This document shows, piece after piece, positions 11,943 to 53,812 of a stretch of 64,000 bases of DNA. Position numbers and translations under genes: made by a program. Origin of the DNA: Mycolicibacterium confluentis (GTDB lineage: Bacteria; Actinomycetota; Actinomycetes; Mycobacteriales; Mycobacteriaceae); NCBI RefSeq assembly GCF_010729895.1, contig NZ_AP022612.1:4836001-4900000 (forward strand). Direction: 5' to 3'. Each line of letters opens with the position of its first letter. The stretch's first letter is position 1. Below the pieces are notes generated by a model. It did no database searches and was not told where the DNA came from. It was given only the letters and a program-made list of their open reading frames with translations.

Positions 11943-12416
11943 TCAGTACGGCATGCAGACCTTCCAGCCGTCTTCGCGTGCCACACGTAGTTCGATGGTC
12001 CTGCGGCCCAGCATCTCGTTCTGAGCGTCCAGGGTCGCGATGCCGGTGTCGCCGTCGATCTGCACGTCGGTGACGGCGACGTTGGTCAAGCCCTGTGCGT
12101 CCCGGGTGGTCTTGAGCGTGTCGATCACCGGGCCGACGAACTGATCCCGCATCGCCGTGCACATCAGGCTCAGGTAGGTGTCCCACTTCTTCGTGTTGTA
12201 GGCGTCCTGAAAGTCCATGACGGCCTTGTTGATCAGGTCGGCGTCGGACGGCGCGTCGGCCGTCGAGGGTGCAGCGGCCGACGGCGACTCGTCGGGGGCC
12301 GTCATGGTCGTGGTCTCCGGGGCCAGCACCGGGTCCGGGGCGACCTGTCTGCTGCACCCGGCGAGCACCACGGCGCCCACCATCAACGTCACCGCAAAGT
12401 CACGAGCGCGAAGCAT
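11943..12416 (-). CDS. Predicted lipoprotein with NTF2-like domain, downstream of the kinase
   Basis: 157 residues. The signal peptide ends in the lipobox VLAGC (Cys ~21), so the protein is lipid-anchored on the outer face of the membrane. A Thr/Ala/Pro-rich linker (~25-55) is followed by a ~100-residue domain (DLINKAVMDFQDAYNTKKWD ... EDGWKVCMPY) with the DUF4878/NTF2-like look. Two cysteines (SLMCTAM and KVCMPY) may pair. AGGAGG stands 9 bases before the ATG at 12416. It is 28 bases behind the kinase gene and very likely co-transcribed, so it may be a sensor accessory or ligand-binding partner of the kinase. Confidence 0.75.
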   Translation of the reverse strand: MLRARDFAVTLMVGAVVLAGCSRQVAPDPVLAPETTTMTAPDESPSAAAPSTADAPSDADLINKAVMDFQDAYNTKKWDTYLSLMCTAMRDQFVGPVIDTLKTTRDAQGLTNVAVTDVQIDGDTGIATLDAQNEMLGRRTIELRVAREDGWKVCMPY

Positions 12417-12444
12417 CGAAGAGAACCTCCTGTGTCGACCGATC

Positions 12445-14175
12445 TCACTGCTGCCGAGGCATCTTCGCCGCGATCGCGGCGACCAACGCGCTGACGTCGG
12501 TGCTGCCCACCGGTCCGCACCGCTTGACGTCGATGAGCACGTTGGCGCGCGCTGACAGGGCGTGCTGGCACGTGACGTCGGATCCCGGCGGGGTGGCCTC
12601 CAGGGTGTAGGCCCCGGTCCGGTTGACGGGTTGACCGAACTGCCACGGCTGCCCGGGTTCGCCCGCCGGGGTGACGGTGACGGTGGTGCCCGCACACTGC
12701 TCCCACTTCTGTCGCTGCAACTGCAAGGACACCCCGGCCTCGTCGGCCGTCGGGAAGGCGACCACGGCCTGCACCACACCATTGCGCCACGGCTTCTCGT
12801 ACAGCGCCCGCAGGGTCTGGACCGCGACACCGGAGTGGCCGCTGCCGCCGTAGACGGCCTGCTGGGCTGGAGCCCACGCACCGAGGCAGGTCTGGTTGTC
12901 GATCGTCGCGGAGTCGTCGAGCAGTTGGTCGCCGTCGGTCTCGAGGACCACGGCCTGATCACCGGTGTTGCCGGGAATCTCGTCTGTGGTCAACAGCAGC
13001 GGGCGCAGCTCACCGGGCGCGACGTCGGCCAGGGGGGCGGAATTCGGCACGGCAGCAGTCTTTTCCGGATCTGCTGGCGCATCCGCGTCGGCGCCGCCGG
13101 AGTCGGGCCACACCGCCACCGCGGCACCGATACCCGCGACCAGCACCACGACACCCGCGAGTGCGCCGATGAGGGCGCCGTGGCCAGTCCGCCGAGGCGC
13201 GGGCACGCCGGGGGCGGTGTAGATCGGCGGCGCGGTGAACACCGGCGGCGCACCGGGGGTCGTGTGCGGGTAGGAGATGACCTCGGGACCCGGCACGGGG
13301 ACCACGGGCGGCGACGGGAGGCGACGGGGGGTGTTCGGATTGCGCAGCGCCTCGGTCGCGGCGGCGGCCAGGGCCGCGGCCGCCGGGAATCGGGCCGCAG
13401 GGTCCTTGGCCATCGCGATCGCGATGACGTCGTCGAAGGCCGCGGGCAGCGCCGGCACCACGTCGGTGACTCTCGGCGGCTGGTCCATCAGATGCGCCTT
13501 CATCACCGCGGCGGGTCCGTTGGTGGCCGCGAACGGCGCCTTCCCCGTCACGAGTCGGAACAGTGTGCAGCCCAGGGAGTAGATGTCGGCGCGGCCGTCG
13601 AAGACCTCACCGGAGATGACCTCGGGCGCGGCGTAAGCGATGGTGGCCATCACCAGACCGGTCGCGGTGAGGCCGACATCGTCGAGAGCCCGCGCGATCC
13701 CGAAGTCGCCCAACAGGACCCGCTCTCCTGCTCCGGCATGACCGGACAGCAGGAAGTTCGCCGGCTTGATGTCGCGGTGCACGATGCCACGGCCGTGCGC
13801 GTAGTCGAGCGCCTTGGCCACCTCGCCGATGATGTGGACCGCGCGTTCGGGTGTCATCTGCCCGGCCCGCAGTGCGGCGTCGGCGTCGGTGCCGTCGACG
13901 TACTGCATGGCGATCCACAGTTGACCGTCCTCGGTCTGCCCTCGGTCGTACACCGCCACGATCTGCGGCAGGTCGAGTGAGGCCGCGACGTCGGCCTCGC
14001 GCGTGAACCTGGTGCGGAAGTCGGCGTCCCGGGACAGTTCCGCGGACAGCACCTTCAACGCGTCACGCCGCGGCAGGGTCGGATGAGCCGCCAGATACAC
14101 CGCGCCCATGCCGCCGGTCCCCAGGATGCGTTCGATCCGGTACCCGGCGACCTCGGAGCCTTCGGTCAGCATCAT
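12445..14175 (-). CDS. Transmembrane Ser/Thr protein kinase with PknH_C-type extracellular sensor
   Basis: 576 residues. The Hanks-type kinase domain (~12-275) has the P-loop GTGGMGAVY, Lys41, HRDIKPAN (catalytic Asp135) and DFG 157-159. The activation segment has Thr170 and Thr172 and ends ATIAYAAPE, where most PknB relatives read GTxxYMAPE. A Pro-rich juxtamembrane linker (~280-330), one membrane helix (~333-357) and an extracellular PknH_C domain (~395-575) with several cysteines follow. PknH-type sensors are thought to bind a small ligand through the outside domain. It heads a two-gene unit with the lipoprotein and is divergent from the 14471 gene, with shared regulatory elements between them. 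ATG at 14175 or at 14172 are both possible. Confidence 0.93.
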
Positions 14176-14349
14176 CCCCCTCGGCAGTCGCTGGCCGGCA
14201 TGCCCCCAACGGGGTTCAAGCCGTCTGGACGAGAGTATCCGGGGGCAGCAGCCCGCACCGGCAACCCGCAGGGACGAGAAGACCGCGGCGTGCGTGGTCG
14301 TCGCCTGCGCCCCCGTGCGTGCACGCCTCCCCCAATCTTCGGCCGCGTC

Positions 14350-14407
14350 AAAAACTGTAGCGACCCCTTAAATTGCGTGAACAAACCGTAGCAGATGCTA
14401 CAGTTTT
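14350..14407. promoter_or_regulatory. Candidate operators: three copies of AAAC(C/T)GTAGC between the kinase and 14471 genes
   Basis: AAACTGTAGC at 14352-14361, AAACCGTAGC at 14383-14392 and its inverse GCTACAGTTT at 14397-14406. The last two form a dyad with 11-bp arms (one mismatch) around a 2-bp spacer. The intergenic space 14176-14470 is otherwise featureless and unusually AT-rich only here. The same element recurs at 34821-34842 and 34908-34917, at the other end of the cluster. No regulator I know of has this consensus. Confidence 0.72.
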
Positions 14408-14470
14408 ACGCGGAGGCGCGTGGGACACCGTGACTACCGCTAGGTTCGGCAGCAGCGAGAGAGGACTTCG

Positions 14471-15514
14471 ATGACCTATCCCCCGCAGTGGAACCCTCCC
14501 GGCGGCCCGCCTCAGGGCGGAGACCCATTCCAGCACGGCGGTCCCCCGCCGCCCTACGGCCACAACCCGTTCGGCGTACTCGGACAGCCTCCGCACGGAC
14601 AACCACCGCAGGGGTATCCGCCGCAGGGGTATCCGCAGCCGGGCTGGGGGCCGTACGGCGAGGCGCCGCCACTGGGCGGACCACCTCCGCGGCGGAGCAA
14701 CACCCCGTGGATCGTGGGCACCATCGCGGTGGTCGCCGTGATCACGGTGCTGGTGTCCACCCTGTTGTGGCAGTTGAACTCCGGCGACGACGACACCGTC
14801 ACGACCGCGGCCACCACGACGTCCGCCACGACGACGGCGCCGACGACGACCACGACCACCACCACCACGTCGTCACCGACTCCGACGCCGACCGTCGCAC
14901 CCGCGGGCGCCTGCGAGGGGTTCAAGGGCGGACCCGGCCCCACCACCCCGGCAGGCTGGTCCACCGTGGTGAGCCCACGGGGTCTGCTCTACGACGTCCC
15001 ACCGGGGTGGACCGTGCACAAGTGCGGCACGTTGATCGGCTGGGAGAAGCCGTGTGCGGACGGACCTTTCGGGTACTGCCCGATCCGGACCATGAGTGGG
15101 GCCGCGACGCTGCCCACCGCGGACCTGAACTGCGATGTCACCTGGGCCGACGCGGGCGTTCCTGGGGCGAAGAACATCACCGACATCAACGAGGCCGTAC
15201 GCTCGGAGGCCACCCTGGTCTCCGACATCTACACCTCGAAGAACGGTGTGGTGCCGCAGGTTTCGCTGAGCCCGCCCCGCAACCTGACCGTCGGCGGGGC
15301 GCCCGCGGTGCAGATCGTGGCGACCGTCACCGGAATCGAGGCCGACAGCTGCCACGCGCCCAAGGTCCTGCACTCCATGCTCGCCACCACCGTGCCGGGC
15401 CAGGAGGGCAGCGTGCTGTTCATCGTGGCGCTGAGCCAGGATGCGCCCGGCGCACCGGACGGGGGCCTGATGGACCAGATGGTCGGGACGCTGCGCGCCG
15501 CCGAACCGGCCTGA
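14471..15514 (+). CDS. Single-pass membrane protein with Pro-rich cytoplasmic tail and Cys-rich extracellular domain
   Basis: 347 residues. The first ~75 residues are Pro/Gly-rich with GDPFQ and HNPFGVLG motifs and two tandem G-Y-P-P-Q repeats. One membrane helix (~78-98, IVGTIAVVAVITVLVSTLLW), a Thr-rich linker (~110-135) and an extracellular domain (~145-347) with about six cysteines follow. The outer domain includes LLYDVPPGWTVHKCGTLIGW; it is not a PknH_C domain as far as I can see and may be DUF8017-like. It is the only plus-strand gene of the cluster. Ribosome site AGAGAGGAC lies 7 bases before the ATG. Function unknown; a second sensor or substrate of the kinase is plausible. Confidence 0.75.
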   Translation: MTYPPQWNPPGGPPQGGDPFQHGGPPPPYGHNPFGVLGQPPHGQPPQGYPPQGYPQPGWGPYGEAPPLGGPPPRRSNTPWIVGTIAVVAVITVLVSTLLWQLNSGDDDTVTTAATTTSATTTAPTTTTTTTTTSSPTPTPTVAPAGACEGFKGGPGPTTPAGWSTVVSPRGLLYDVPPGWTVHKCGTLIGWEKPCADGPFGYCPIRTMSGAATLPTADLNCDVTWADAGVPGAKNITDINEAVRSEATLVSDIYTSKNGVVPQVSLSPPRNLTVGGAPAVQIVATVTGIEADSCHAPKVLHSMLATTVPGQEGSVLFIVALSQDAPGAPDGGLMDQMVGTLRAAEPA

Positions 15515-15517
15515 CCC

Positions 15518-16423
15518 TCACGCCGGGATGCGGGCCACGATCCTCTTCGCGATCGTGGCCGCCTCCCCGGAGACAGCGCTGCCGATGATCCAGACGTCCA
15601 CCAGCACATTGTTCTTCGTCGCGACGGCCCTGGTCACCGAGACCGGCGAGGCGTCGTTGTTCGACCGCAGCGTGCTCACGCCGTCACCGGCGTCCTCCGG
15701 TGCGCCGAGGGTCCACATCGAGAACTCGCCCTGCGGCACGTGCGTCCACTGGAACCGCTTGCCCGCACACCCCCGCCACAGATCGACGTAGGCCGTCACT
15801 GCCCGTTGTGCGGCGGCAGGGTCGGGGAAGTCCGCAACCCCCTCGGCGACCTGCATCGACGGGGTGGGCTGCTGCATATGGTTCTTGGCGTACACCGAGA
15901 CATACCCGCTGTTCTCGTAGGCCGGGGGCAGATGCGCCCCGAACGAGCTCATGCACTCCGGCGGGTCGAACGTGGCCACATTGGCAGGCGGCGCCTCAAC
16001 CCTGGTCGTGACTCCGGCATCCACCAGGCCGGCGTTGCCGGTGATCTCCTTGATCTCCTCAAGGCTGAGCAGCAGCGGCGGCAGGCCTGCGGTGCTGACG
16101 GTCTTCGGTGCCGGCGGCGTTGTGGTGGTGATGATCTCGCTCGACGGCGCGGTGGCGGGTTCGGCCGCTGGCTCCGGATCCGGACCCCCGCTGCGGCCGA
16201 ACACGAGCCAGGCCACCAGCGCGAGGATCGCGACCACCGCGACCGCGGTCAGCACCCCGACCAGGATCCGCGGGCGACCGCGCCGCGGTGGATTCTGCGT
16301 CGGCCCGGGAGGGAAAGGCTGGCCCGGTGGCGAATTCGGCGGTGGTGCAAACGGATCACCGGCGAACGGTGCGCCCCCGAACGGATCCCGTGGCGTGTCG
16401 GCGCCACCCCCCGCACCCGTCAT
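15518..16423 (-). CDS. Membrane-anchored PknH_C-type sensor protein without kinase domain
   Basis: 301 residues. The N-terminal Pro-rich cytoplasmic tail contains RDPFGG and GDPFAP. One helix lies at ~52-76 (VGVLTAVAVVAILALVAWLV), followed by an extracellular domain (~110-301) that reads like the PknH_C domain of the kinase: LLSLEEIKEITG, DPPECMSSFG, WRGCAGKRF and a C-terminal VLVDVWIIG. It therefore looks like the sensor half of PknH on its own, and could compete or pair with the kinase. ATG at 16423 follows GAGGAAGGAC. Last gene of the long minus-strand operon, 34 bases after the GTPase gene; its end converges on the 14471 gene. Confidence 0.8.
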   Translation of the reverse strand: MTGAGGGADTPRDPFGGAPFAGDPFAPPPNSPPGQPFPPGPTQNPPRRGRPRILVGVLTAVAVVAILALVAWLVFGRSGGPDPEPAAEPATAPSSEIITTTTPPAPKTVSTAGLPPLLLSLEEIKEITGNAGLVDAGVTTRVEAPPANVATFDPPECMSSFGAHLPPAYENSGYVSVYAKNHMQQPTPSMQVAEGVADFPDPAAAQRAVTAYVDLWRGCAGKRFQWTHVPQGEFSMWTLGAPEDAGDGVSTLRSNNDASPVSVTRAVATKNNVLVDVWIIGSAVSGEAATIAKRIVARIPA

Positions 16424-16457
16424 ACCCGTCCTTCCTCTCGACTCCCGACCCGACCTC

Positions 16458-17615
16458 TCACAGCACTCCGAAGCTCGACGTGATCCACCGCACCGGATCG
16501 GCGCAGCGGAACGGTGCGATGCCGCGCGAGTGCAGACGGTTGCCACTCGGCGGCTGCCCGAGCGCGGACACCACGAAATAGCGATGCGCCAACGGCCTTC
16601 CAGTTGATGGGTTTTCGACGGCCGCGACGATCGATCCGCCGTGCAGGCGGGTCAGCAGACTGCGCACCTCCTCGTGCAGCAGCGCGCCGTCGGCCATGTC
16701 GTAGCGAGGCTGATCAGAGGTGTCCCGCAGATACGCCGCACCGGAATTCGACATGATCAGGCTCCAGTCGGAGCCCTCCACACCACGCAGCACCCGCAAC
16801 GCGTCGAACTTCGACAGGATCACCGCCAGCCTGGGCTGCCCCGTCCCGATGGCCATCTGCACATTGTTCAGGACCGCACGGGGGTCGCCGCCGCCGAACA
16901 TCTGTGCGGGCAGCAGGTCCTGCAACTGATCGCGAATCGCCTTGACCCGCAGCGGATCGAACATGAAGAAGACGCCGTCGGCGTTCGCGAAGAACCGGAA
17001 TGCCGGCGTCCGCAGGTCGCCGGACTCCATGTCCTCCCCCGCCACGTCGCGCAGCACGAGGTACCGGCGCACGCCACCCCACACCCCCAGGGAGAACATC
17101 AACGGTTCGCGCTGATGGCTCGACTGCGTCGCCACCGTGGGAGTCGGAGCGATCAGGCCGCGCTGCACATACAGCGGGTTCTCGTAGTTGACGGCGTACG
17201 CGTCCGCGGTGGCTCGAGTCACCGGGCTCATCGCGACGCCGAGGCGCTCACACAGAAGTTCAAGCTGTTTCACCAGGACCGCGATGTAGAGGCTCTTGCC
17301 GGTCGCGCGCGCACCCGCCATCGCGATGCACACCGCGTGCCCCTCGCGCCACCCTTCGGGCAGTTCGAAGTGGCACACCGGACACACTTCGACGGCTGGG
17401 CCCTGCAGGGCCCGGCTCGCCTCGAAAGCCGGTGGCGGCGGGCCGTTGTAGCCGGGTGGCCTGGTCCAGGTGTAGAACGGGCCGCAGTCGACGGGTGCGC
17501 CGGCGTACGCCGAACCGACATCGTCGTGGTAGCGCTGTCCGCCGGCCTGCGCCGGCAGGGTCCACAGATGCTCGACGGGGCTCAAGACGCTGAAGCAGCG
17601 GGGGCACTTCGTCAC
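16458..17615 (-). CDS. Zinc-ribbon GTPase (double-GTPase/DO-GTPase family, likely)
   Basis: 385 residues. The N-terminus has a split zinc ribbon with C4-x2-C7 and C78-x2-C81 (VCPVCHFELP). The P-loop GARATGKS is at 101-108. A G3 motif DVAGE at 190-194 and a G4-like SKFD near residue 260 mark it as a TRAFAC-type GTPase rather than a AAA or STAND ATPase. This order fits the DO-GTPase families described with GAP1 partners in predicted bacterial conflict systems; that link is from memory. GTG at 17615 overlaps the stop of the vWA gene (GTGA). The GAP1 gene is two genes upstream in the same operon and is the expected regulator or partner. Confidence 0.8.
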   Translation of the reverse strand: MTKCPRCFSVLSPVEHLWTLPAQAGGQRYHDDVGSAYAGAPVDCGPFYTWTRPPGYNGPPPPAFEASRALQGPAVEVCPVCHFELPEGWREGHAVCIAMAGARATGKSLYIAVLVKQLELLCERLGVAMSPVTRATADAYAVNYENPLYVQRGLIAPTPTVATQSSHQREPLMFSLGVWGGVRRYLVLRDVAGEDMESGDLRTPAFRFFANADGVFFMFDPLRVKAIRDQLQDLLPAQMFGGGDPRAVLNNVQMAIGTGQPRLAVILSKFDALRVLRGVEGSDWSLIMSNSGAAYLRDTSDQPRYDMADGALLHEEVRSLLTRLHGGSIVAAVENPSTGRPLAHRYFVVSALGQPPSGNRLHSRGIAPFRCADPVRWITSSFGVL

Positions 17616-18556
17616 ATCGGCCTCGCCTGCAGCGCCAGTGCCAGCGGCACCACCACGCGTTCGATCACGCCCGGATGCGCCAGCATCGCGGCCGCGGCGT
17701 CCTGGCCGGGCGGCGGTGACGGCAACCGGGGGCCGCCCGCCGCATCCAGGCGGTGGTCATTCGACAGGGTGATCGTGGGAAACGACTGTCGCACAGCCTC
17801 GGTGACGAAGTCTGTGCAGACCACGGTGCGGGCCGGCCCCGGAGCCAACCGGGACCACCGCGCACCGGCACACCATCGGGGCGCAGCGGCATGCACCGCG
17901 GCCGAGAGGTCGGCACCAACGACGGGCGGCACACCCGCGACGTCGGCGCCGACGTAGACCGCAGAGACCTCGCCGGCACCCACGGCGTCGGCCACTCCCA
18001 CGACGACGTCGGCCACCGCGGCCACCGTGCCGTCGGTGAACCAGGACCGCATCGACGCCGAGGCGTCCACCGCCAGCACCAGGCCGCCACCGGAGGCCGC
18101 AGCCTGTCCGCGGCCGATCGCATTGCGGGCCGCGGTGCGTGCCGCGGCGGCCAACGGGCCCAACGCACGATCCGCGACCGCGCTGACCCCCACCTCGATC
18201 TGCTGTCCACGCGGGGTGAGCGTCGCGAACACCACGCCGGCGTCGCCGCTGACGTCGACGGGGTCGAACACCACCTGCACGGGGTCGGCCTCGGCGGGGT
18301 TGTCCGGGGAGATCGCGAGGTGGATCGCGGTGCCGGGCGCGAACCTCGGTGCACCGACGGGCCGCACTGCGATCGAGACCCCACCCAGCAGGCGCGGCAG
18401 CACCGCGAGGTGGGCGGAGTTTCGTATCACGGGCTGCTCTGCACCACAACGAATCTCGAGCTCAGCGCCGGACACCGCACCGGTGATCGACACCGAGATC
18501 GGCTGGTGAGGTATATGCACACGCTGATTGCGCGCGCCGACAACGTAGATGGGCAT
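17612..18556 (-). CDS. Cytoplasmic protein with C-terminal vWA domain
   Basis: 314 residues with no signal peptide or membrane helix. The first ~150 residues form a beta-rich region (ISVSITGAVSGAELEIRCGA) that I do not recognise. The vWA domain follows: LVLAVDASASMRSWF carries a complete MIDAS motif (Asp164-x-Ser166-x-Ser168), with a later acidic turn in TVVCTDFVTEAV. MIDAS domains bind a metal and a partner protein. The open frame extends upstream, but ATG at 18556 is used because it overlaps the stop of the GAP1 gene by one base. It lies between GAP1 and the GTPase, suggesting a three-protein module. Confidence 0.82.
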   Translation of the reverse strand: MPIYVVGARNQRVHIPHQPISVSITGAVSGAELEIRCGAEQPVIRNSAHLAVLPRLLGGVSIAVRPVGAPRFAPGTAIHLAISPDNPAEADPVQVVFDPVDVSGDAGVVFATLTPRGQQIEVGVSAVADRALGPLAAAARTAARNAIGRGQAAASGGGLVLAVDASASMRSWFTDGTVAAVADVVVGVADAVGAGEVSAVYVGADVAGVPPVVGADLSAAVHAAAPRWCAGARWSRLAPGPARTVVCTDFVTEAVRQSFPTITLSNDHRLDAAGGPRLPSPPPGQDAAAAMLAHPGVIERVVVPLALALQARPM

Positions 18557-25831: not shown

Positions 25832-25832
25832 G

Positions 25833-28800
25833 TCAAAACGTCCCGCCCTCCGGAATCACCACCGGGCTGCCGTCGTCCACCAGAGCGGCCGCGCCCGCAC
25901 TGCTGACGCCGGCCGCCAGCGCGGCCGACTCCCGGTCCAGCAGCTTGATCAGCGTGTCGGTCGCCCAGTACACGTCGGGCCCGAGGTCACGGAAGATCGG
26001 CGTCTTGGCGGCCTTGGACCGCGTGCCGACCGTCGTGAACGCACCCTCGGGGGCCGCGCCGGGTGCGCCAGCGGGCAGGTACTGCGCCGCGACGTCCCGA
26101 ATCGTGGCCAGCCACGTCTGCGCGGCCTCGTGCCGCTCGTCGGCCGTTTCGGCGGCGGCCACCGGACCGACGCGGGACGTCACGCCGGGCGCGGTGCTGC
26201 CCGACTGCAGGAAGTCCCGCAGCAGGCCCGCGGCCGACAGTTCGACAATGCCGCTGGCGGGATCCTGCGTGTGCGAGTCGTACAGGGCACGCAGCACGCT
26301 GTAGGGCCGCAGCGAGCGCATGACCGGCGGCTCATGCGACTGCGCGATGGCCAGCAGGATGCTCTCCAGCACCGCGGGAAGCCAGTCGTAGGGCGCCAGG
26401 AAGTCCGAGGGCGGGGTCAGCAGCGGGTTCGGGAAGTCCACCCACGTCGAGGTCTCGCCGTCGAAGATGCGCACGGGTTCGGCGTAGGGCGAGGCCGGGA
26501 TCTGGATCCGGCCCAGGAGCTGTCCCAGGAACCAGCCCGCGGTCATGACCCGGCGTTCGTCGTCGGTCATCGGCAGCGACGCCGACAGTGGCCGGGACCG
26601 GCGCCAGCGCCAGAACCCCTTTCGGCCCGGGCCCGCGATCTGGGACCACTGCTGGGCGGCGGGCTTGAGCACCGAGTCGAATGCCAGCGGCGAGTAGTTC
26701 GGGTAGGAGCCGAAGATGTCCACCCGCGTGACGTTGTCCTCGTCAGACAGCGACCGGTCGTAGTTGTCCCGACTGGCCTGGTCGATGCGCGGGTTGGCGC
26801 GCAGCACCTCGGCCAGCGCCTCGGCGACGGGTTGGCCCAGGAACGGCACATCGGAGAACTTGTAGCGGTACTCGACCTGCTTGCCCGGGTGCACGCGCTG
26901 CAGCGCCTGGTCATTCACGCTGGCCAGAGGTCTCGCCAACGACAGGGCCTCGGCGAACTTGGTGGCGATGTCGCGTCGCCGGTTGGCCAGTTCGGACTCC
27001 GAGGCACCCACGCCCGCCACGAAGTCGCGCAGCGAAACCTTGCAGAACTCCTCGAAGGCCTCACCCGGACGCTCGACGTAAAGCCTCGCGCGGCGCAGCA
27101 GTTCATGAGTTCGGGTGTGGACGTCAAACTGTGCCATCGACGGCACCCTGGCCCGCCCCGTCTCCGGGTCGGTACCCAGGGCGCGGGTCACCCACGTCGC
27201 CGTCCGGGTGATCAGGCCGCCGGGGGCCGAGTAGCCTCCGCTGGTCCGCCACAGGCCGAGGATGACGCTGGCGGCGGCCTCGTCGATCGCGCCGCGCAAC
27301 GGGATCATGGCGTTGGCGCCCGCGACGGCCTTCGGCAGATCGGTCTCGTACCGGGCCTTGAACGCCGCCGAACTGATCAGCAGCACTTCGTTGTTGGCTT
27401 CGGCGAAGCGCGGCGGGACCAGTTCGTCCGCGTCGGCGGGCCAGGCCGAGTACTGATCCGTCGACAGGCGCGCCAGGCCGACGTCCGACGGCGGGTCGGC
27501 GCGGGCCTTCTCCAGCAGGATCATCGCCTCACCGAGCGACTCCCGCAGCGGCGCAAGCAGTTCGGGCCCCATCACCCGCATGATGTCTGCGATCCGGGCG
27601 GCGGCGTCGGCGAACAGTTGGCGACGCACACTGGCCCGGAAGCCGTCGAGCGCGGTCCCCAGCACCTGGTCGGCGTTGGTCATCACGCCGTGCAGCGAGC
27701 GCAGCGCGGCGTCCACCTGAGGCGGGACGGCGACGATGTCGGGCGGCCCCATACTGCCCAACTGCGCGATGCCGGGCGCCAAGGCGTCGTCGATGTAGCG
27801 CCGCAGCTTGTCGACGAGTTCCCGCGCGTACGGCAGGCCGAGGTTGGCGACCGCCACGCCGACCATCCGCTCGAGGCGATCGGCGAACTCGTTGTGCCAC
27901 GCATAGGCCATCGCATAGGCCGCCTCGGCGCACGCCCGGGCCAACTCGCCGCGCCGATTGTGCAGCGCCTGCCGGAAGATCGGCGTCCACTGCTCGGCGT
28001 TCATACCCTGCGGGTTGGGCAGGTAGCCACGAAGCTGCCGGTCAATCAGGCCGTTGACGGTGGCATTCACAGCCTCGGGCGGGAACGCGCCCGCGCCGAT
28101 CCAGTTGCCCAGGATGCCGACTCGCGTCTGCTCGTCACTCACCGACGCGGGCAGCCTCAACTCGGTGCAGTGTGCCGTCCACTGACTCGACAGCAGCGAA
28201 TCGAGTTGTTCGGTGCTCGACGCCGGATTGCCGGGTTGCATGTGCCCGAAGAGCAGCTTGTCGACGGCACTTCGGGCCAGGCGCTGCGCAGCGTACTCGG
28301 CGTAGCGATCGCGTCCCATCGACAGGCTCGAGAAGCCGTATGTGCCCCAGGGCAACACATCCCATGTCGCGATGCCCCAGCCGAGCAGGTCGCGGTCACC
28401 TTCGGGGGAGGCCGTGTTACCCAGGTCGTAGGACACGAACTGGTCGCTGGCCCGCCCGCTCATCATCAGGGCCGCCAGTCCGCGGGCCAGGCCGCGGTAG
28501 ACCGCGTACTGCGAGCCGTCGCCGAACTGTGTGCGGTCGGCGCCGATGTAGCGACCGACGGGGAAGACGCGGGCGAACGGGATGGGCTCCCCCTCGCCGT
28601 GCTGCTGACCCAACGCCCGCAGGAGGCGCACATCATGCTCGCGCGCGGCGCCGGACTGGCTCGCGACGATCTCACCGAGCATCGCCAATGCGTTGGCGCG
28701 CACACCGATTCGGGCGCTTTCGGGCAGCGACTCGAAGATGTCCGGGGTCACCATGAACACGCCCATGAGCTTGGGATCGAGACCTGTGACCAGGGTCAGA

Positions 28801-29384
28801 AGTCGGCAGATGTCGAGCGCCATCGACGCACCCGCGCCGCCGGCCATCGAGGACACCACGAGGACCAACGGGGGCTCGTTGGGATCGAACCGGCCCATGC
28901 CGGGCACATCCGCCGACGCCATCGCCGAGATCGTCTCGACACGGAACAGCGCGTCCCACGCGGACTGCAGGCGCGCGTGGATCTCGCTGGCCTTCGACAG
29001 GGTGATCATGCGGCCGATCGCGCGGTACTGTCCCGCACCCGCGGAGATGGGGTTGGTGACCTCCTGCGGATTGCGCGGGGCCCATGTCGCGATCGTGTCG
29101 AGGCTGTTCTCGGCGACCAGTCGTTGCGACAGTGCGCCATCGAGGATCGAGTAGCTGCTGCCCTGCGGACCGCAGCCGATGTAGCTTCCCCCCTGGGCCG
29201 GGACGTTGGCCAGGCCTTCGGGCCCGGACTCGGCCGCGCTGGGCACGTCGATGTGAACGAACTGCCAGCCGGGCAGGAGCTTATCGATTCCGGCGGCGTG
29301 CAGTTCCGAGCGCAGCTGGTCCATCATGAACGACAACGTCGCGCCGCCGGAACCGCCACATCCCACTACCAAGAATCGACGCAT
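25833..29384 (-). CDS. Large tubulin-like GTPase (Tubulin_2 type)
   Basis: 1183 residues. The N-terminus MRRFLVVGCGGSGGATLSF is a Rossmann glycine-rich loop placed as in FtsZ and tubulin. Residues 178-187 SSMAGGAGAS stand where tubulins have the GGGTGSG signature, followed by the helix MALDICRLL. These match the Tubulin_2 (tubulin-like) family, which is usually found beside vWA proteins. The ~800 residues after the GTPase part are largely helical and unique. ATG at 29384 has AAGGAAG upstream and overlaps the previous stop by one base. Whether it polymerises is unknown. It is separate from the cell-division FtsZ, which is not in this window. Confidence 0.82.
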   Translation of the reverse strand: MRRFLVVGCGGSGGATLSFMMDQLRSELHAAGIDKLLPGWQFVHIDVPSAAESGPEGLANVPAQGGSYIGCGPQGSSYSILDGALSQRLVAENSLDTIATWAPRNPQEVTNPISAGAGQYRAIGRMITLSKASEIHARLQSAWDALFRVETISAMASADVPGMGRFDPNEPPLVLVVSSMAGGAGASMALDICRLLTLVTGLDPKLMGVFMVTPDIFESLPESARIGVRANALAMLGEIVASQSGAAREHDVRLLRALGQQHGEGEPIPFARVFPVGRYIGADRTQFGDGSQYAVYRGLARGLAALMMSGRASDQFVSYDLGNTASPEGDRDLLGWGIATWDVLPWGTYGFSSLSMGRDRYAEYAAQRLARSAVDKLLFGHMQPGNPASSTEQLDSLLSSQWTAHCTELRLPASVSDEQTRVGILGNWIGAGAFPPEAVNATVNGLIDRQLRGYLPNPQGMNAEQWTPIFRQALHNRRGELARACAEAAYAMAYAWHNEFADRLERMVGVAVANLGLPYARELVDKLRRYIDDALAPGIAQLGSMGPPDIVAVPPQVDAALRSLHGVMTNADQVLGTALDGFRASVRRQLFADAAARIADIMRVMGPELLAPLRESLGEAMILLEKARADPPSDVGLARLSTDQYSAWPADADELVPPRFAEANNEVLLISSAAFKARYETDLPKAVAGANAMIPLRGAIDEAAASVILGLWRTSGGYSAPGGLITRTATWVTRALGTDPETGRARVPSMAQFDVHTRTHELLRRARLYVERPGEAFEEFCKVSLRDFVAGVGASESELANRRRDIATKFAEALSLARPLASVNDQALQRVHPGKQVEYRYKFSDVPFLGQPVAEALAEVLRANPRIDQASRDNYDRSLSDEDNVTRVDIFGSYPNYSPLAFDSVLKPAAQQWSQIAGPGRKGFWRWRRSRPLSASLPMTDDERRVMTAGWFLGQLLGRIQIPASPYAEPVRIFDGETSTWVDFPNPLLTPPSDFLAPYDWLPAVLESILLAIAQSHEPPVMRSLRPYSVLRALYDSHTQDPASGIVELSAAGLLRDFLQSGSTAPGVTSRVGPVAAAETADERHEAAQTWLATIRDVAAQYLPAGAPGAAPEGAFTTVGTRSKAAKTPIFRDLGPDVYWATDTLIKLLDRESAALAAGVSSAGAAALVDDGSPVVIPEGGTF

Positions 29385-32300
29385 CAGCTTCCTTCCCTAA
29401 AGGGGTCGAAGGGTTCGTGTTTCGGCGGCTGTGGCCGCTGCGGGGGCGGACCCTGTGGTGGGCCCTGCGGGGGTCTCGGTGGGGGTGGCCCCTGTGGGGG
29501 CGGCCCCTGCTCAGGTGCCTGCGGAGGTGCCTGTGAACGCGAAGGTCCCTGTGGCACCCGGGGTTCGGGCCGAGGCGCGCGCGGTACGCCGCCGGGCCGG
29601 TAGCCCGCCGGAGCGGGCTGGGTGCTCTCGTAGGGATCCGGACCGCGTGGCGGCGGGGTCGGTGCGTCGTATGGGTGCACCGGTCGCGACGGCGCAGGCG
29701 GCGCGGGCGGCGGAGGGCCGGGCGCGGCGCTCGGAGGCGAGCCGAAGCCCCCGCCGAACGGATCCGCGGCGCCGAACGGGTCACCGCTGGGCGGGCCCGA
29801 CGGTCCGGGCGCCGGCGCGGCGGCACCGGCGGGAGCCGAAGGCGGCATCGGCGCGCCGCCGAACGGGTCGAATCCAGGGGGTGCCCCGGCACCGCCTGCG
29901 TCGCCACCGAACGGCGAGGCGACCTGGGCGGCGGCCTCGGCAGGCATCGCGAGGCCGGCGTGCATCGCCCGCATCCGCAACCCGTTGAGCAGGTCGGGCA
30001 GCCTGCCGGCGATCTTCTCGTAAAGCTGTTCGCGCGCCGCGGTGTCGGTGTTGCCGCTGACGAGCAGCAGAACCTCGGCCTGGTCGGCGGGCCCCTGCGG
30101 ATCGTGCAGCACCACCCACTTGTTGTGCACCGCGAGCGGCAGCACGGCGAGCAGGCCGGACGGATCGCTGCCGGGCAGTTCCGAGCCCACGCTGAGCCGG
30201 CCGTCCGCGTCGACTGTCACGTGGCCGGCCCCGAAGGGACTGCGTCCCGTGACGGCGTTGAGCACCACGCCCAGCACCTCAAGTCGTCGGACTCCCCCGC
30301 CGGTCAGCCCCGGCACCGGTTGGATGAGGTCCTTGTCGCGCATCGCGAACGGTTCCCCGTCGCGCAACACCTCGTCACCGCGGACCTGGACCGGGATGCG
30401 CTCGGCGAGCAGTGGGGTGTCCGGGATCTTGGACACCCACCACTTGGACGCGTACAGCAGCGCCAGCGGGATGCCCGGGCCCAGCAGCAGGGCCGCGATG
30501 AGCACCAGCACGAAGTTGGTGGTGTTGAGCGGCTTGATCAGCGAGGCGACGAACGGCACCTCGACGACCTGCGAGTCATCGGGGTTGTCCAGCGCGGCGA
30601 CGTGCACGGGCACTGTGCCGTTGAGACCACCGTGACCGTCGCGGTCGGTGCGCAACGTGACCATCAGCTCACCGGTCTCACCGGACTGCACCTTCAGGCA
30701 CGTCTCGGGCGAAGTGGCCTGCGCCGTCACGCGGGGCGTCCCGATGTCGTCGGGGCTGGCGTTGACCTTCACGGCGTCGGCGTCGGCGATCCAGACGCAT
30801 CCGGGCCCGGTGATGCCCAGCGTCGCCGTGGCACCCTGTGCGGCCTGCACGGTGCCGAAGTCGATGCGCTCCCCAGGCGTGGGCAGGCCCAGCTTGGGCA
30901 GGATCTGCACCGGCACCTCGACGTCCTGCGGCGACAACTCGGTGCCGGGGGCGATCTGGCCGCCCTGCGGATCGAGTGCCGGCGCGGTCGTGATGACCAG
31001 CGACATCTTGAGCACGCCGCGCCCCGGTTCGACGCCGCTGAGGTCCGCGGAGACGGGCTTGCCCAAATCCTCCTTGGCCGCGGCGTCGACGAGGTCGATG
31101 GGTTCCCCACCGTCAGGCACGAGCGTGGCCGTGAGCGTGGCGGTGCCGGCGAGGTCCGCGGCCGACACCACGGCATCCTTACCGTCGACCAGGCCGAACG
31201 AGAGATCCTCGACCACCTGACCGCTGCGCCACGACACGTCCTTGGCGTTCGACAGCGCCGGGAAGATGTCGGTGGTGATGTGGATGTTGACCCGCGACAC
31301 CGCATCGGCGTGCTCGCCGGTGGTGTCGACGTAGACGATCGCCCACTGCCCGGCCCAGCCCGGCGTGCCCGAGTTGACGATCGAGATGGTCTGAGCGGAT
31401 TCGGACTGCCACTCGTAGTGCACCGCGATGCCAGCGATCTCGGCGTCGGACTTGCCGTCCTTCTTCGGCAGTTCCAGCATCTCGCCGCCGGGTGCCACCA
31501 GATACGGGACCACGCCGGGCATTCCGCCGGATCCGAGGATGTTGACGGACTTGATCGAGCGGTCCAGAACGAAGTTGTGCCGAGCCTCCGGGCACACCTG
31601 CAACTGGCACACCGGACCCTGCTTGTTCACGCCCGGGTCGGGGTTGAGCGAGTCGAACGCGAACAGCATGTCGTCGATGTTGGCCACGGGATAGAAGTCG
31701 CCGGGTACCGGATCGGTGATCTCGCCGCACTCCTTGCCGTTGAGCCCCTTGCCTGTGCTGATTGCCGACATCACATCGAAGTCGGCGGGAGAGCTGTTGG
31801 CGCCCAGCCCGATTCCGAGCATCACGATGTTCGACGACCGCACCTGGTCGGCCAGACCGCCGGGCCGGCAGATGGATTCGACGGCGCGCTGGCGGATCTG
31901 CTCAACGTTCGCGGGATCGTTGAGGTCGATTCCGTCGGCGTAGGGCTTGGACCCCAGGCGCGGGGTGAAGTCGATCTTGCCGTCGGAGAACCAGGCGATG
32001 GCCTGGCAGCGGTCGGCGCCGCGTCCCGCCAGTGCCTGCCTCGCGCCGTCGAGTGCGAGCCAGTAGTCGGTGTCGATGCCGGTGTTCTTCGACGCGATGT
32101 CGGACAGTGCCGCCGCGGTGCCGTCGGCGCTGCTCTCGGTCAGACGGGTCCAGTCCTTCTCGGGCGTGTAGGTGTCGGCGAAACCCGCGACCGCGACGTC
32201 GAGCTTGGCGCCGACCCGGTCGGCGTAGCGGCCCAGGGTCTGCAGCAGCGGTGTGGCCGCGGCCACGCGCGCCGCCTCCGGGTCGGACTGCTGCAGGCTG

Positions 32301-32479
32301 CTCGACTCGTCGAACAGCAGTAGGAGATCGCCGGCCTTCGCCGACGCCAGGCACGCGCCGAACCGGTTGGCACCGCCGGTGTTCGCGGCGTTCGCGGTGG
32401 CCGTGAACCCGGCCAGCATCAGCGTGGCGACCAGGAATCCCACAGTCACGCGCGCACTCAGGGTCGTGAGTCGAGTCAT
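29384..32479 (-). CDS. Membrane-anchored protein with extracellular vWA domain and Pro-rich cytoplasmic tail
   Basis: 1031 residues. A signal peptide (~1-32, ending TATANAAN) is followed by a vWA domain (~48-330). Its MIDAS is intact (Asp57-x-Ser59-x-Ser61 in LLLLFDESSSLQQ) and it has several cysteines. Beta-sandwich domains (~340-640) come next. One membrane helix (~649-675, VLVLIAALLLGPGIPLALLY) leads to a cytoplasmic domain (~680-870) and a disordered tail (~880-1031) with four (D)PFG repeats such as GFDPFGGAP and EPFDPFREGS. The layout is receptor-like: ligand binding outside, docking tail inside. The start ATG 32479 overlaps the upstream stop by one base and the end overlaps the tubulin-like gene. 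Confidence 0.85.
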   Translation of the reverse strand: MTRLTTLSARVTVGFLVATLMLAGFTATANAANTGGANRFGACLASAKAGDLLLLFDESSSLQQSDPEAARVAAATPLLQTLGRYADRVGAKLDVAVAGFADTYTPEKDWTRLTESSADGTAAALSDIASKNTGIDTDYWLALDGARQALAGRGADRCQAIAWFSDGKIDFTPRLGSKPYADGIDLNDPANVEQIRQRAVESICRPGGLADQVRSSNIVMLGIGLGANSSPADFDVMSAISTGKGLNGKECGEITDPVPGDFYPVANIDDMLFAFDSLNPDPGVNKQGPVCQLQVCPEARHNFVLDRSIKSVNILGSGGMPGVVPYLVAPGGEMLELPKKDGKSDAEIAGIAVHYEWQSESAQTISIVNSGTPGWAGQWAIVYVDTTGEHADAVSRVNIHITTDIFPALSNAKDVSWRSGQVVEDLSFGLVDGKDAVVSAADLAGTATLTATLVPDGGEPIDLVDAAAKEDLGKPVSADLSGVEPGRGVLKMSLVITTAPALDPQGGQIAPGTELSPQDVEVPVQILPKLGLPTPGERIDFGTVQAAQGATATLGITGPGCVWIADADAVKVNASPDDIGTPRVTAQATSPETCLKVQSGETGELMVTLRTDRDGHGGLNGTVPVHVAALDNPDDSQVVEVPFVASLIKPLNTTNFVLVLIAALLLGPGIPLALLYASKWWVSKIPDTPLLAERIPVQVRGDEVLRDGEPFAMRDKDLIQPVPGLTGGGVRRLEVLGVVLNAVTGRSPFGAGHVTVDADGRLSVGSELPGSDPSGLLAVLPLAVHNKWVVLHDPQGPADQAEVLLLVSGNTDTAAREQLYEKIAGRLPDLLNGLRMRAMHAGLAMPAEAAAQVASPFGGDAGGAGAPPGFDPFGGAPMPPSAPAGAAAPAPGPSGPPSGDPFGAADPFGGGFGSPPSAAPGPPPPAPPAPSRPVHPYDAPTPPPRGPDPYESTQPAPAGYRPGGVPRAPRPEPRVPQGPSRSQAPPQAPEQGPPPQGPPPPRPPQGPPQGPPPQRPQPPKHEPFDPFREGS

Positions 32480-33069
32480 CACAGCCTGCCCGCCCACAAC
32501 GCGATCTGCCACGCACCCAACGCAATTCCGACCAGGCACACCGCGAGCACGGCCCAGTACAGGTTCGCGGCCCAGGCGGGAGCCGAGTAGATGGTCTCGG
32601 TACGCCTGCGCGTGTCGATCCGGGTGTAGGTGGCCAGGGCTCCGATCGCCACGGGCCCGGCCAGCAGCCAGCCGACAAGTGCCGTGGCGAGAAGACCGCC
32701 GGCCAGGGCGCCGGCGAGCGCGATGACGAACCCCGCGATCGCCAGGCCCAGCGCGATGACGAACCAGATCATCGGCGGGCCCGACGTCGTCAGCGCCCCA
32801 CCCGCCGCAACGCCCGACCCCGGCAGCCCGAACACGTCCTGCTGCCCGCCCGACTGCCCGAAGGCGCCCGGATCCCCAAACGCACTCTCGGGGTTGGGCC
32901 GCGCAGGCGACTGCGCGGACGGAGGCTGGTTTGCCCACGGGTCGAAGCCACCGCTGGCCGCGGGCGGCCCCTGATGCGGTGCGGGGGCGCCGCCGAAGGC
33001 CGGCGGCGGTGTGCCGCCCGGTTGACGGGCCGGACCGAAGTCGCTGAAGTCGAAGGGGTTCTGGCTCAT
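32479..33069 (-). CDS. Small polytopic membrane protein with NPF-containing N-terminal tail
   Basis: 196 residues. The first ~95 residues are Gly/Pro/Gln-rich and disordered, opening with SQNPFDFSDFG and later GGFDPWANQ. Three membrane segments follow (MIWFVIALGLAIAGFVIALA, then LLATALVGWLLAGPVAIGAL, and YWAVLAVCLVGIALGAWQIAL) with a basic loop TRIDTRRRTE between the second and third. No family recognised. ATG at 33069 is preferred over upstream in-frame codons because the protein then begins at the shared tail motif. Coupled to the vWA gene by a one-base overlap. Confidence 0.75.
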   Translation of the reverse strand: MSQNPFDFSDFGPARQPGGTPPPAFGGAPAPHQGPPAASGGFDPWANQPPSAQSPARPNPESAFGDPGAFGQSGGQQDVFGLPGSGVAAGGALTTSGPPMIWFVIALGLAIAGFVIALAGALAGGLLATALVGWLLAGPVAIGALATYTRIDTRRRTETIYSAPAWAANLYWAVLAVCLVGIALGAWQIALWAGRL

Positions 33070-33121
33070 GCCCACCTCGTCATGGGCGCGCGATGGCGCC
33101 GCTGTCGGGGATCTCGTGTGG

Positions 33122-33805
33122 TCATTGGTAGGGGTCCAAGCAGACGGCCACAGCGCGGTTCGGGGAAGCCGCGGCGTACACGGTGCCGCACTGCCCGCTG
33201 TCGGCGACCCGCTGCGTGACGGTGTAGACGCCATCCCGCCGTTGGCAGTCCACTTCGAATAGGTCAAGGGCGTCGTCGGATTCGGTGCTGCGCCGCTGAA
33301 CCTCGACGCACGTGCCGATCGGCACGGTGGCGTGGTCGACCTTGACGCGCGGCGGAGCTGTGGGGTCGGCCGTCTGGGTGATCGTCGTCGGACGCGGCGG
33401 CGTGGTGCCGGCCCTGATCATCGCCGGCGTGGTCGCGGCCGCGCTCGACCCCGACTCGTCATCGGTGGTCAGCCACCAGATGAGTGCGGCGATCAGCGCG
33501 ACGCACATGAGGTAGCCGATGATCAGGCCCGCGATGGCGGCGGGCCTGCCCCTTTCCCCGGTGCGCTTGATCTGGGGCAGCGCGAGGTGGCCCAGCACAA
33601 CGCCCGCGGGCGGCAGCACGACGGCCAGCACCGGCGACAGCACCGCAAACGTGTTGAGCGGCGGCCTCTGCGGAGCGGGCGCCTGCGGCCCGGGCGGCGT
33701 CGGATACCCGAACCCGCCGCCGTACTGCGTCGAGTGCACGGGTCCAGACGGTGCGCCGAACGGGTCGGGCGACTGCCGCTGGAAGGGATCACCCCCGGGA
33801 TACAT
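33122..33805 (-). CDS. DUF4190-type membrane protein with Cys-rich C-terminal domain (paralogue B)
   Basis: 227 residues. A Pro-rich tail with GGDPFQ and PDPFGAP precedes two hydrophobic segments around the basic loop LPQIKRTGERGR (~50-110), which is the DUF4190 arrangement. After a Thr/Pro linker, the C-terminal domain (~150-227) has four cysteines (IGTCVEVQRR, FEVDCQRR, SGQCGTVY, AVCLDPYQ), resembling the LppU or septum-formation type outer domain. It is a clear paralogue of the 33866 gene. A near-match to the cluster operator, AAACCGTTGC, lies in the gap before it (33821-33830), but may be chance. Confidence 0.78.
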   Translation of the reverse strand: MYPGGDPFQRQSPDPFGAPSGPVHSTQYGGGFGYPTPPGPQAPAPQRPPLNTFAVLSPVLAVVLPPAGVVLGHLALPQIKRTGERGRPAAIAGLIIGYLMCVALIAALIWWLTTDDESGSSAAATTPAMIRAGTTPPRPTTITQTADPTAPPRVKVDHATVPIGTCVEVQRRSTESDDALDLFEVDCQRRDGVYTVTQRVADSGQCGTVYAAASPNRAVAVCLDPYQ

Positions 33806-33865
33806 CGGACCACCTTCCCGAAACCGTTGCGGCCCAGACTCTTCGCGAAACTGCGCCCGCCGCCG

Positions 33866-34564
33866 TCATCCGCGGAAGTCCGATACGCAGGCGAAGACGG
33901 TCTTCTCGAGATTGCGCAGTGCGTACCCGGGGCAGGCACCCTCGTAGCTCGCCGTCAGATCAACCCGCAGAACCCCGTCGCGGATCTGGCAGGGGGTGCG
34001 GTAGATCTTGATCAGATTGACTCCCGGCTCGCCGGGTTTGGGCCGCTCCTGGACGACCTCGACGCAGTCGCCGATCCGAAGATCCTCGACGAGCACCGTC
34101 GGCCTCGCCATGGGCGGCGGGGTCACGACGGTGGTGCGAGTCGTGGGCGGCACGGCCGATGTCGTGGTGGGCGTCGGGGTCACCGTGGCCGGTTCCGGGT
34201 CCGCGTCGCCCCCGAGCACCAGCCACAGAATCAGCGCCACCACCGCGAGCACGATCACGAGATACGACAGCGTCACCCCGACCAGAGCGCGCTCCCGGCC
34301 ACGCTGGCCCGTGCGCTTCACCTGAGACAGTGCGATGTGCCCGAGGACCGCCCCAACGGGCGCGGACAGGATGGCGAACACCACCGACAACGTCGCCAGC
34401 GTGTTGACCTCACCCTGCGGCGCAGGCTGCGGTGGGGGCGGATACGGCGGATACCCGCCGGACCCCACCGGCATGCCGAACCCACTCTGGGTCACCGGCG
34501 GCCCACCCGGAGTTCCGAACGGATCGCCGCCGAACGGATCGTGCTGCTGTCCACCAAAGGTCAT
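33866..34564 (-). CDS. DUF4190-type membrane protein with Cys-rich C-terminal domain (paralogue A), first gene of the operon
   Basis: 232 residues built like its neighbour: an N-terminal tail with HDPFGGDPFGTPGG, two hydrophobic segments around LSQVKRTGQRGRER (~55-115), a Thr-rich linker and a domain with IGDCVEVV, TPCQIRDG, GACPGYAL and FACVSDF. The cysteines are in equivalent places, so disulfides outside the membrane are likely. ATG at 34564 is the first codon of the conserved tail; the 85 in-frame codons upstream look non-coding. It is the promoter-proximal gene of an 11-gene minus-strand series. The palindromic operator lies 257 bases upstream. Confidence 0.78.
   Translation of the reverse strand: MTFGGQQHDPFGGDPFGTPGGPPVTQSGFGMPVGSGGYPPYPPPPQPAPQGEVNTLATLSVVFAILSAPVGAVLGHIALSQVKRTGQRGRERALVGVTLSYLVIVLAVVALILWLVLGGDADPEPATVTPTPTTTSAVPPTTRTTVVTPPPMARPTVLVEDLRIGDCVEVVQERPKPGEPGVNLIKIYRTPCQIRDGVLRVDLTASYEGACPGYALRNLEKTVFACVSDFRG

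Positions 34565-51673: not shown

Positions 51674-53812
<2,139 letters not shown>

Follow-up and report, generated by a model that had tools for sequence, protein, structure and literature searches.

The 64,000-nucleotide stretch of the Mycolicibacterium confluentis genome analysed here (contig NZ_AP022612.1, positions 4,836,001 to 4,900,000; hereafter the window) carries eleven consecutive minus-strand genes between 34564 and 15518, within a host genome of 5.88 Mb. Eight of these form a core cassette spanning 16458-33069, and we name them, as core genes 1-8, mpC, vWAout, TubL, TMB887, FN3, GAP1, vWAin and DO-GTPase. From mpC to DO-GTPase adjoining genes overlap by 1-4 bases, with one pair 1 base apart. 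We are highly confident that the locus belongs with the actinobacterial GAP1-N2/tubulin GTPase-centric cassettes that were predicted in 2020. A first-pass annotation, which had placed the open reading frames where we located them, treated the region as a single system of about 22.6 kb. The eight-gene core of that system is indeed conserved together, but its kinase and lipoprotein belong to a separate module.

A profile search of a genome collection with the TubL alignment returned 118 relatives, and the best 80 loci were used for counts. All eight genes are present in 61 of these 80 related actinobacterial loci, and gene order and strand are identical in 78; in the other two, the frame called for DO-GTPase starts ahead of the vWAin frame. 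Presence per gene among the 80 loci is 72 for mpC, 74 for vWAout, 80 for TubL, 79 for TMB887, 75 for FN3, 70 for GAP1, 66 for vWAin and 68 for DO-GTPase; many of the incomplete loci appear to be truncated by contig ends. Pairwise distances of the eight core proteins correlate well. The association of the eight genes is far beyond chance, and the neighbourhood conservation that the first-pass annotation proposed to examine across actinobacteria reveals parts that travel together and are not scattered. Three distant relatives (G198, G051 and G087) keep the order vWAout, TubL, TMB887, with GTPase and GAP1 matches only after 4 to 9 kb and some parts unmatched.

TubL (25833..29384, minus strand, as are all features below unless stated) is a tubulin-like GTPase that matches Tubulin_2 over the Pfam cut-off (162.6 bits) and is the single Tubulin-like match in the whole window genome. 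Its glycine-rich nucleotide loops are conserved among aligned relatives, and its closest named relative, from Mycobacterium sp. ACS4331, is 98% identical. The predicted structure, in which two tubulin domains are separated by a helical insertion, aligns to CetZ and tubulin over 316-365 residues distributed across model residues 1 to 921-1016. The model thus shows tubulin similarity that reaches past the first domain and resumes beyond the insertion; alignments A2 and A3, used for structure models, were built from selected relatives only. Downstream lies TMB887 (23168..25831), modelled at a pLDDT of 85.9 with a cytoplasmic alpha/beta N-domain, a long helical hairpin with two transmembrane (TM) segments, placed from hydropathy, and a C-domain. 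The N-domain (model residues 3-197) has the strand order of small GTPases, with no P-loop seen, and judging from this fold it is possible that it represents a pseudo-GTPase.

Among the remaining core genes, DO-GTPase and GAP1 would make up a GTPase switch. DO-GTPase (16458..17615) has two CxxC pairs, and although the window protein falls below the Pfam cut-off for DO-GTPase2 (19.5 of 27 bits), 24 of the 27 homologues scanned match that family at E<=0.01 (best E 3.8e-12). Motif conservation in this protein and in both vWA proteins was read across 67 to 75 aligned relatives; here Walker A, DxxGE and SKxD are conserved, upholding the earlier GTPase call. GAP1 (18556..21078) matches both GAP1-N2 (76.6 bits) and GAP1-M (34.7 bits) over cut-off, so that domain searches bear out the GAP1 call as they do the tubulin-like one. 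It is the fastest-evolving core protein, with a median identity of 0.51 within Mycobacterium, in contrast to TubL and DO-GTPase, which evolve slowly. vWAin (17612..18556) is a cytoplasmic MIDAS vWA protein and weakly TerF-like: it scores 23.8 of 29.4 bits against vWA-TerF-like, below cut-off, with four matches among 22 relatives scanned, and its MIDAS residues D164 and S168 are kept in 59/67 and 66/67 rows. FN3 (21075..23168) is a putative fibronectin-III (FNIII) scaffold. Pfam finds neither fn3 nor HRDC in the window protein, whereas in a family of 34 members searched at E<=1 there are weak matches to fn3 in six (best 0.017) and to HRDC in three (best 0.045); the fibronectin-III assignment made in the first pass is accordingly weak.

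The core had already been predicted by comparative genomics, with no mechanism attached. Using that approach, Kaur et al. (2020; PMC7159879) described an actinobacterial tubulin theme among GAP1-N2 systems, whose neighbourhoods, in the portions of their text available to us, hold a DO-GTPase with zinc ribbons alongside GAP1-N2, a single tubulin-like gene, a vWA protein bound to the membrane and an FNIII protein. Mutual exclusion with VMAP systems is a further trait of the theme. Where parts of the arrangement had been thought familiar as predictions, the whole core in fact corresponds to this theme. In their theme the FNIII protein is fused to HRDC; the fn3 and HRDC matches here are weak and come from FN3 relatives. 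There are differences as far as those portions go: the C-terminal part of the tubulin-like protein is described as an uncharacterised helical domain, whereas our model suggests tubulin similarity there. Nor does that description (PMC7159879), in the same portions, mention [DN]PF tails, a fixed eight-gene order, TMB887, a second, inner vWA protein in actinobacteria or TerD beside the theme. Sequence searches of the PDB with profiles of TubL, FN3, vWAin, DO-GTPase and TMB887 returned nothing usable, antibody rows and one Kelch row being taken as chance matches, and no experimental study of the cassette was found in the literature searched.

A [DN]PF motif common to the membrane components, lying in their cytoplasmic tails, is new here. 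vWAout (29384..32479) has a predicted signal peptide, an extracytoplasmic MIDAS vWA domain, one TM segment and a cytoplasmic tail with four DPF. It scores 23.7 of 27 bits against VWA_2, below cut-off, and its MIDAS residues D57, S59, S61, T137 and D166 are conserved, so that the earlier view of two MIDAS vWA proteins, one facing outward and one inside, holds on residue conservation. mpC (32479..33069) has two TM segments by hydropathy and an NPF in its N-tail. Upstream of the core are mpA (33866..34564; DUF4190, 45.7 bits) and mpB (33122..33805; DUF4190, 50.2 bits), both over cut-off, putative accessory receptors with two DPF each, those of mpA in the N-tail; other mycobacterial loci have relatives of both on this side of the cassette. 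Beginning 34 bp past DO-GTPase is a gene for a stand-alone PknH_C membrane protein (15518..16423; 134 bits, over cut-off), again a putative accessory receptor, with two DPF in its tail. Its location and the motif it carries both fit this protein into the system, as the first pass had it, and the small membrane proteins and envelope-spanning arrangement described there are likewise supported. A one-TM protein on the plus strand (14471..15514), with DPF and NPF in its N-tail, is a probable accessory receptor, and an opposite-strand relative occurs in four of ten other core-bearing mycobacteria, one of the matches being just 42 residues long. Within the window, DPF or NPF is carried by mpA, mpB, mpC, vWAout (tail only), the stand-alone PknH_C protein and the 14471-15514 protein, and is absent from TubL, TMB887, FN3, GAP1, vWAin, DO-GTPase, the kinase and the lipoprotein.

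The motif recurs across the family. Among vWAout proteins, the last 350 residues contain [DN]PF in 25/25 mycobacterial and 39/48 other loci and the last 12 residues in 21/25 and 29/48, compared with 0/25 and 3/48 for the ectodomains. N-tails of mpC have it in 20 of 24 mycobacterial and 36 of 48 other loci; shuffled controls for the vWAout and mpC tails gave means of 2 to 5 proteins. Flanking proteins of DUF4190/PknH_C type hold 72 DPF spread over 51 of 64 proteins (shuffled mean 2.5), and the 362 other flanking frames hold 20, in 19 frames. A control on DUF4190 proteins covered ten Mycobacterium genomes, with 61 of 65 matches read and the four unread ones not near a core. Within 25 kb of TubL, 16 of 18 carry [DN]PF, as opposed to 4 of 21 away from the core in five core-bearing genomes and 1 of 22 in five genomes without TubL (near the core versus elsewhere, Fisher p 1e-8). 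In the window genome, eight other PknH_C matches were read and lack the motif, the kinase and an orphan being counted apart. That orphan, which combines DUF4190 and PknH_C and is encoded at a distance from the core (G000:C1:1606396-1607322; also L144, L157), has DPF and NPF in its tail and is perhaps an unlinked receptor of the core machine. Outside Mycobacterium, the motif is also seen in TMB887, in 15/49.

In 24/24 mycobacterial loci with at least 400 bp available on the upstream side, the gene next to the core there is of DUF4190/PknH_C type, versus 0/47 others. In seven of ten other core-bearing mycobacteria, tailed genes of this type come after the GTPase gene. At L008, L214, L215, L217, L219, L220 and L221 there are at least two DUF4190/PknH_C-like frames after the GTPase gene, partly with [DN]PF tails at L214-L221. 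In Mycobacterium, the tailed proteins, some with PknH_C ectodomains, look like interchangeable receptors flanking the cassette, and the shared tail motif of these surface proteins may mark them for the machine.

Beyond the plus-strand gene lie a PknH-type kinase (12445..14175), whose protein matches kinase (148.9 bits) and PknH_C (143.7 bits) over cut-off, in line with its earlier assignment, and the lipoprotein paired with it (11943..12416). The first-pass annotation joined this kinase to the GTPases in one 22.6 kb signalling machine, a reading favoured by the kinase lying adjacent in the window and in the near-identical relative L133, but one that we consider very improbable. The kinase-lipoprotein pair is kept in six of six core-free mycobacteria, chosen as closest kinase relatives, and none of the eight genomes searched for TubL, these six among them, carries it. 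Conversely, when the 20 kb downstream of TubL were searched in ten other mycobacteria that bear the core, no full kinase match (0/10) and no lipoprotein match (0/10) appeared. Seven of the ten have no kinase match there at all, and the best matches in the other three, of 191-245 residues at 28-31% identity, lie inside DUF4190/PknH_C-type frames and are taken as the PknH_C part. The zero kinase counts in the 80-locus survey carry no weight, since the loci surveyed stop about 10 kb past TubL, short of the place of the kinase; one class of matches in that survey, which outside Mycobacterium takes in low-complexity hits, was left aside for those genomes. Kinase relatives are common (143/148 mycobacteria at E<=1e-60), and neither a core-linked distribution nor a tail motif marks the pair, which we reject as components and regard as a separate module. 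A kinase near a GAP1-N2 gene does recall the third, kinase theme of Kaur et al. (PMC7159879), as outlined in the available portions of that paper, but the present cassette includes a tubulin gene, shows no PP2C and does not have the kinase as a conserved neighbour. Two of the six core-free genomes hold the genes that flank the window's island on the left and right, and with them a PknH_C gene that shares 49% identity with the window's; the product of this relative is lipoprotein-like and lacks [DN]PF. It may be that the stand-alone PknH_C receptor took its ectodomain from the kinase neighbourhood.

The cassette is an old but accessory module. Across the order, six of 219 genomes carry TubL, and within Mycobacterium it is present as a single copy in 28 of 297. 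Among the carriers are Mycobacterium, Rhodococcus (for instance Rhodococcus globerulus, locus L057), Gordonia, Williamsia, Corynebacterium, Arthrobacter, Brevibacterium, Propionibacteriaceae, Actinomyces oris and Nostocoides. A quick TubL tree, in which some branches are long, gives one group for each of Gordonia, Corynebacterium, Williamsia and Brevibacterium and one branch for the mycobacterial rows, and splits Rhodococcus. L031, on a contig labelled Solirubrobacterales, nests within Mycobacterium in this tree and is perhaps misbinned. Sorted by the genes they share, the upstream flanks of 22 mycobacterial loci make 14 groups, an upper figure in that short flanks may miss sharing. Two Rhodococcus megaplasmids carry TubL. 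A phage origin was considered and rejected: no phage record carries TubL, and a viral fold library gave it no match at E<=0.001.

This spread invites comparison with biological conflict. Kaur et al. (PMC7159879), in the portions available, proposed GAP1-N2 systems as conflict (anti-invader) systems, in which an intracellular invader would be sensed through FNIII and GAP1, with tubulin assembly killing or walling off the infected cell. The shared core, the accessory spread with its many upstream contexts, the megaplasmid copies and the fast evolution of GAP1 are all consistent with such a role. It nevertheless strikes us as possible but on balance unlikely, as the gene order is fixed with no variable effector gene inside the cassette, phage records are without TubL and many components face outward. 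PADLOC and NCBIfam, run on nine window proteins, matched the kinase alone, and this sole PADLOC match is to a generic domain, for which reason the locus was not filed as a known defence system. A killing response had been suggested in the first pass, yet no killing effector was recognised by PADLOC or among the core Pfam matches, which include no toxin or nuclease family, several core proteins being without any Pfam match.

Outside Mycobacterium, TerD lies upstream of the core in 13 of 48 loci (L044, L045, L046, L047, L049, L050, L056, L070, L071, L072, L079, L093 and L094), eight of them on the same strand at 41-290 bp; three of the TerD calls were confirmed singly by Pfam and the rest by similarity to those. 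At L070, from Pseudarthrobacter sulfonivorans, a TerC/DUF475 gene sits within the same cluster as TerD. Counting 37 carrier genomes, among which the 13 linked loci fall, 26 have TerD anywhere in the genome and 11 have none; the chance expectation for linkage in the 37 is 0.21 loci, and four independent cases would give p = 7e-5, although the link may have arisen just once for Rhodococcus, Williamsia and Gordonia together, leaving perhaps as few as two independent cases. With the weak TerF likeness of vWAin, this linkage raises the idea that the cassette is a branch of the Ter stress genes (TerD, TerC, TerF), a metal- or oxidant-stress module. We regard that as improbable, in view of the below-threshold TerF match, the possibly shared origin of the link, the carriers without TerD, and the mycobacterial record: TerD occurs in eight of 297 mycobacteria, with no overlap with the 28 TubL carriers, and a search of the window genome found no TerD gene. 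TerD is accordingly rejected as a needed partner in Mycobacterium.

We propose, tentatively, a model in which surface sensing drives assembly of membrane-bound TubL against an envelope-directed threat. Through their [DN]PF tails, vWAout, mpC and the accessory receptors with DUF4190 or PknH_C ectodomains would dock on one cytoplasmic core partner. A ligand at the cell surface would alter these receptors, that is, the outward vWA protein and its plug-in companions, and the DO-GTPase/GAP1 switch would relay the change. TubL would then assemble beneath the membrane around TMB887, and its assembly may reshape, cluster or seal off a membrane patch facing the threat or stress. The TerD neighbours point to stress, and a sensing role for the cassette is plausible.

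Several observations weigh against this model. The FNIII assignment of FN3 is weak, and no position could be assigned to the T7 catalytic residue in TubL, the alignments giving no clear counterpart after helix 358-379. Five of 43 DUF4190 proteins distant from a core carry [DN]PF too. Nine of 73 vWAout tails are without it, four of these from eight Corynebacterium loci; eight of the nine do carry the looser [DNS]P[FWY] (shuffled mean 2.4, most 6). The vWAout proteins of the three distant relatives are mixed, one having DPFGG repeats and two neither form of the motif. No [DN]PF-binding domain was identified, and neither an EH domain nor an AP-2-like binder was found. The motif was spotted first and tested later, on related loci that are not independent, and no sampled core-bearing mycobacterial genome has TerD.

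Membrane work without any conflict is a further option. Makarova and Koonin (2010; PMC2875224), in the sections available, suggested membrane remodelling or vesicles for the FtsZl1 family, which resembles TubL in its FtsZ-like N-domain, its vWA and GTPase neighbours, often a kinase too, and its predicted membrane role. An equivalent of the C-terminal tubulin domain was not found by these authors (PMC2875224, same sections), whereas the model here suggests tubulin similarity after the insertion, and the kinase here is not a component. If TubL served such a machine, the receptors would be cargo and [DN]PF a cargo tag. An FtsZ-like gene accompanied by vWA, GTPase and membrane proteins, the tubulin similarity that the model suggests in both parts of TubL and a tail motif that recalls endocytic cargo and adaptor motifs would all suit it. 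Its sporadic occurrence in Mycobacterium argues against a housekeeping role, and no coat or fission protein is seen among the Pfam matches, so that we think this reading decidedly unlikely.

Eukaryotic endocytic proteins carry short NPF and DPF motifs in disordered tails. The likeness to the short D/N-P-F in the tails described here is offered as analogy, with no homology claimed; among the matches listed by our literature search for DPF/NPF motifs in bacteria, the motif papers concern eukaryotic adaptors, which is no proof of absence. It is tempting to speculate that the cassette is a tail-code receptor system convergent with eukaryotic endocytic adaptors. The [DN]PF tags, or [NS]PW in some lineages, would recruit interchangeable receptors to the DO-GTPase/GAP1/tubulin machine, which would cluster, take in or wall off membrane at the site of attack, and new receptors would join by gaining a tail. 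Within this analogy, which as a whole we hold doubtful, the PknH_C protein of the window seems to have gained a tail and so joined the machine.

Elsewhere in the window, Rfam gave no matches within 9000-54000. A tRNA-Gln called by ARAGORN at 52912-52992 falls within a long frame, 51674-53812, for which there is a relative at 82% identity; either the tRNA or the frame may be a false call.

Returning to the model of surface-driven TubL assembly, our findings bear on how this family may be studied. Models of the cassette machine should omit the kinase. The TerD link is new here and suggests which stresses to test first. The tubulin similarity that our structure model suggests beyond the first domain of TubL is also new, as earlier work could not find it, and with similarity predicted on either side of the insertion, the question raised in 2010, whether these proteins form filaments, becomes directly testable. 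Finally, the [DN]PF tail would offer a handle on which membrane proteins belong to the system, and predicts that receptors with new ectodomains can plug in.

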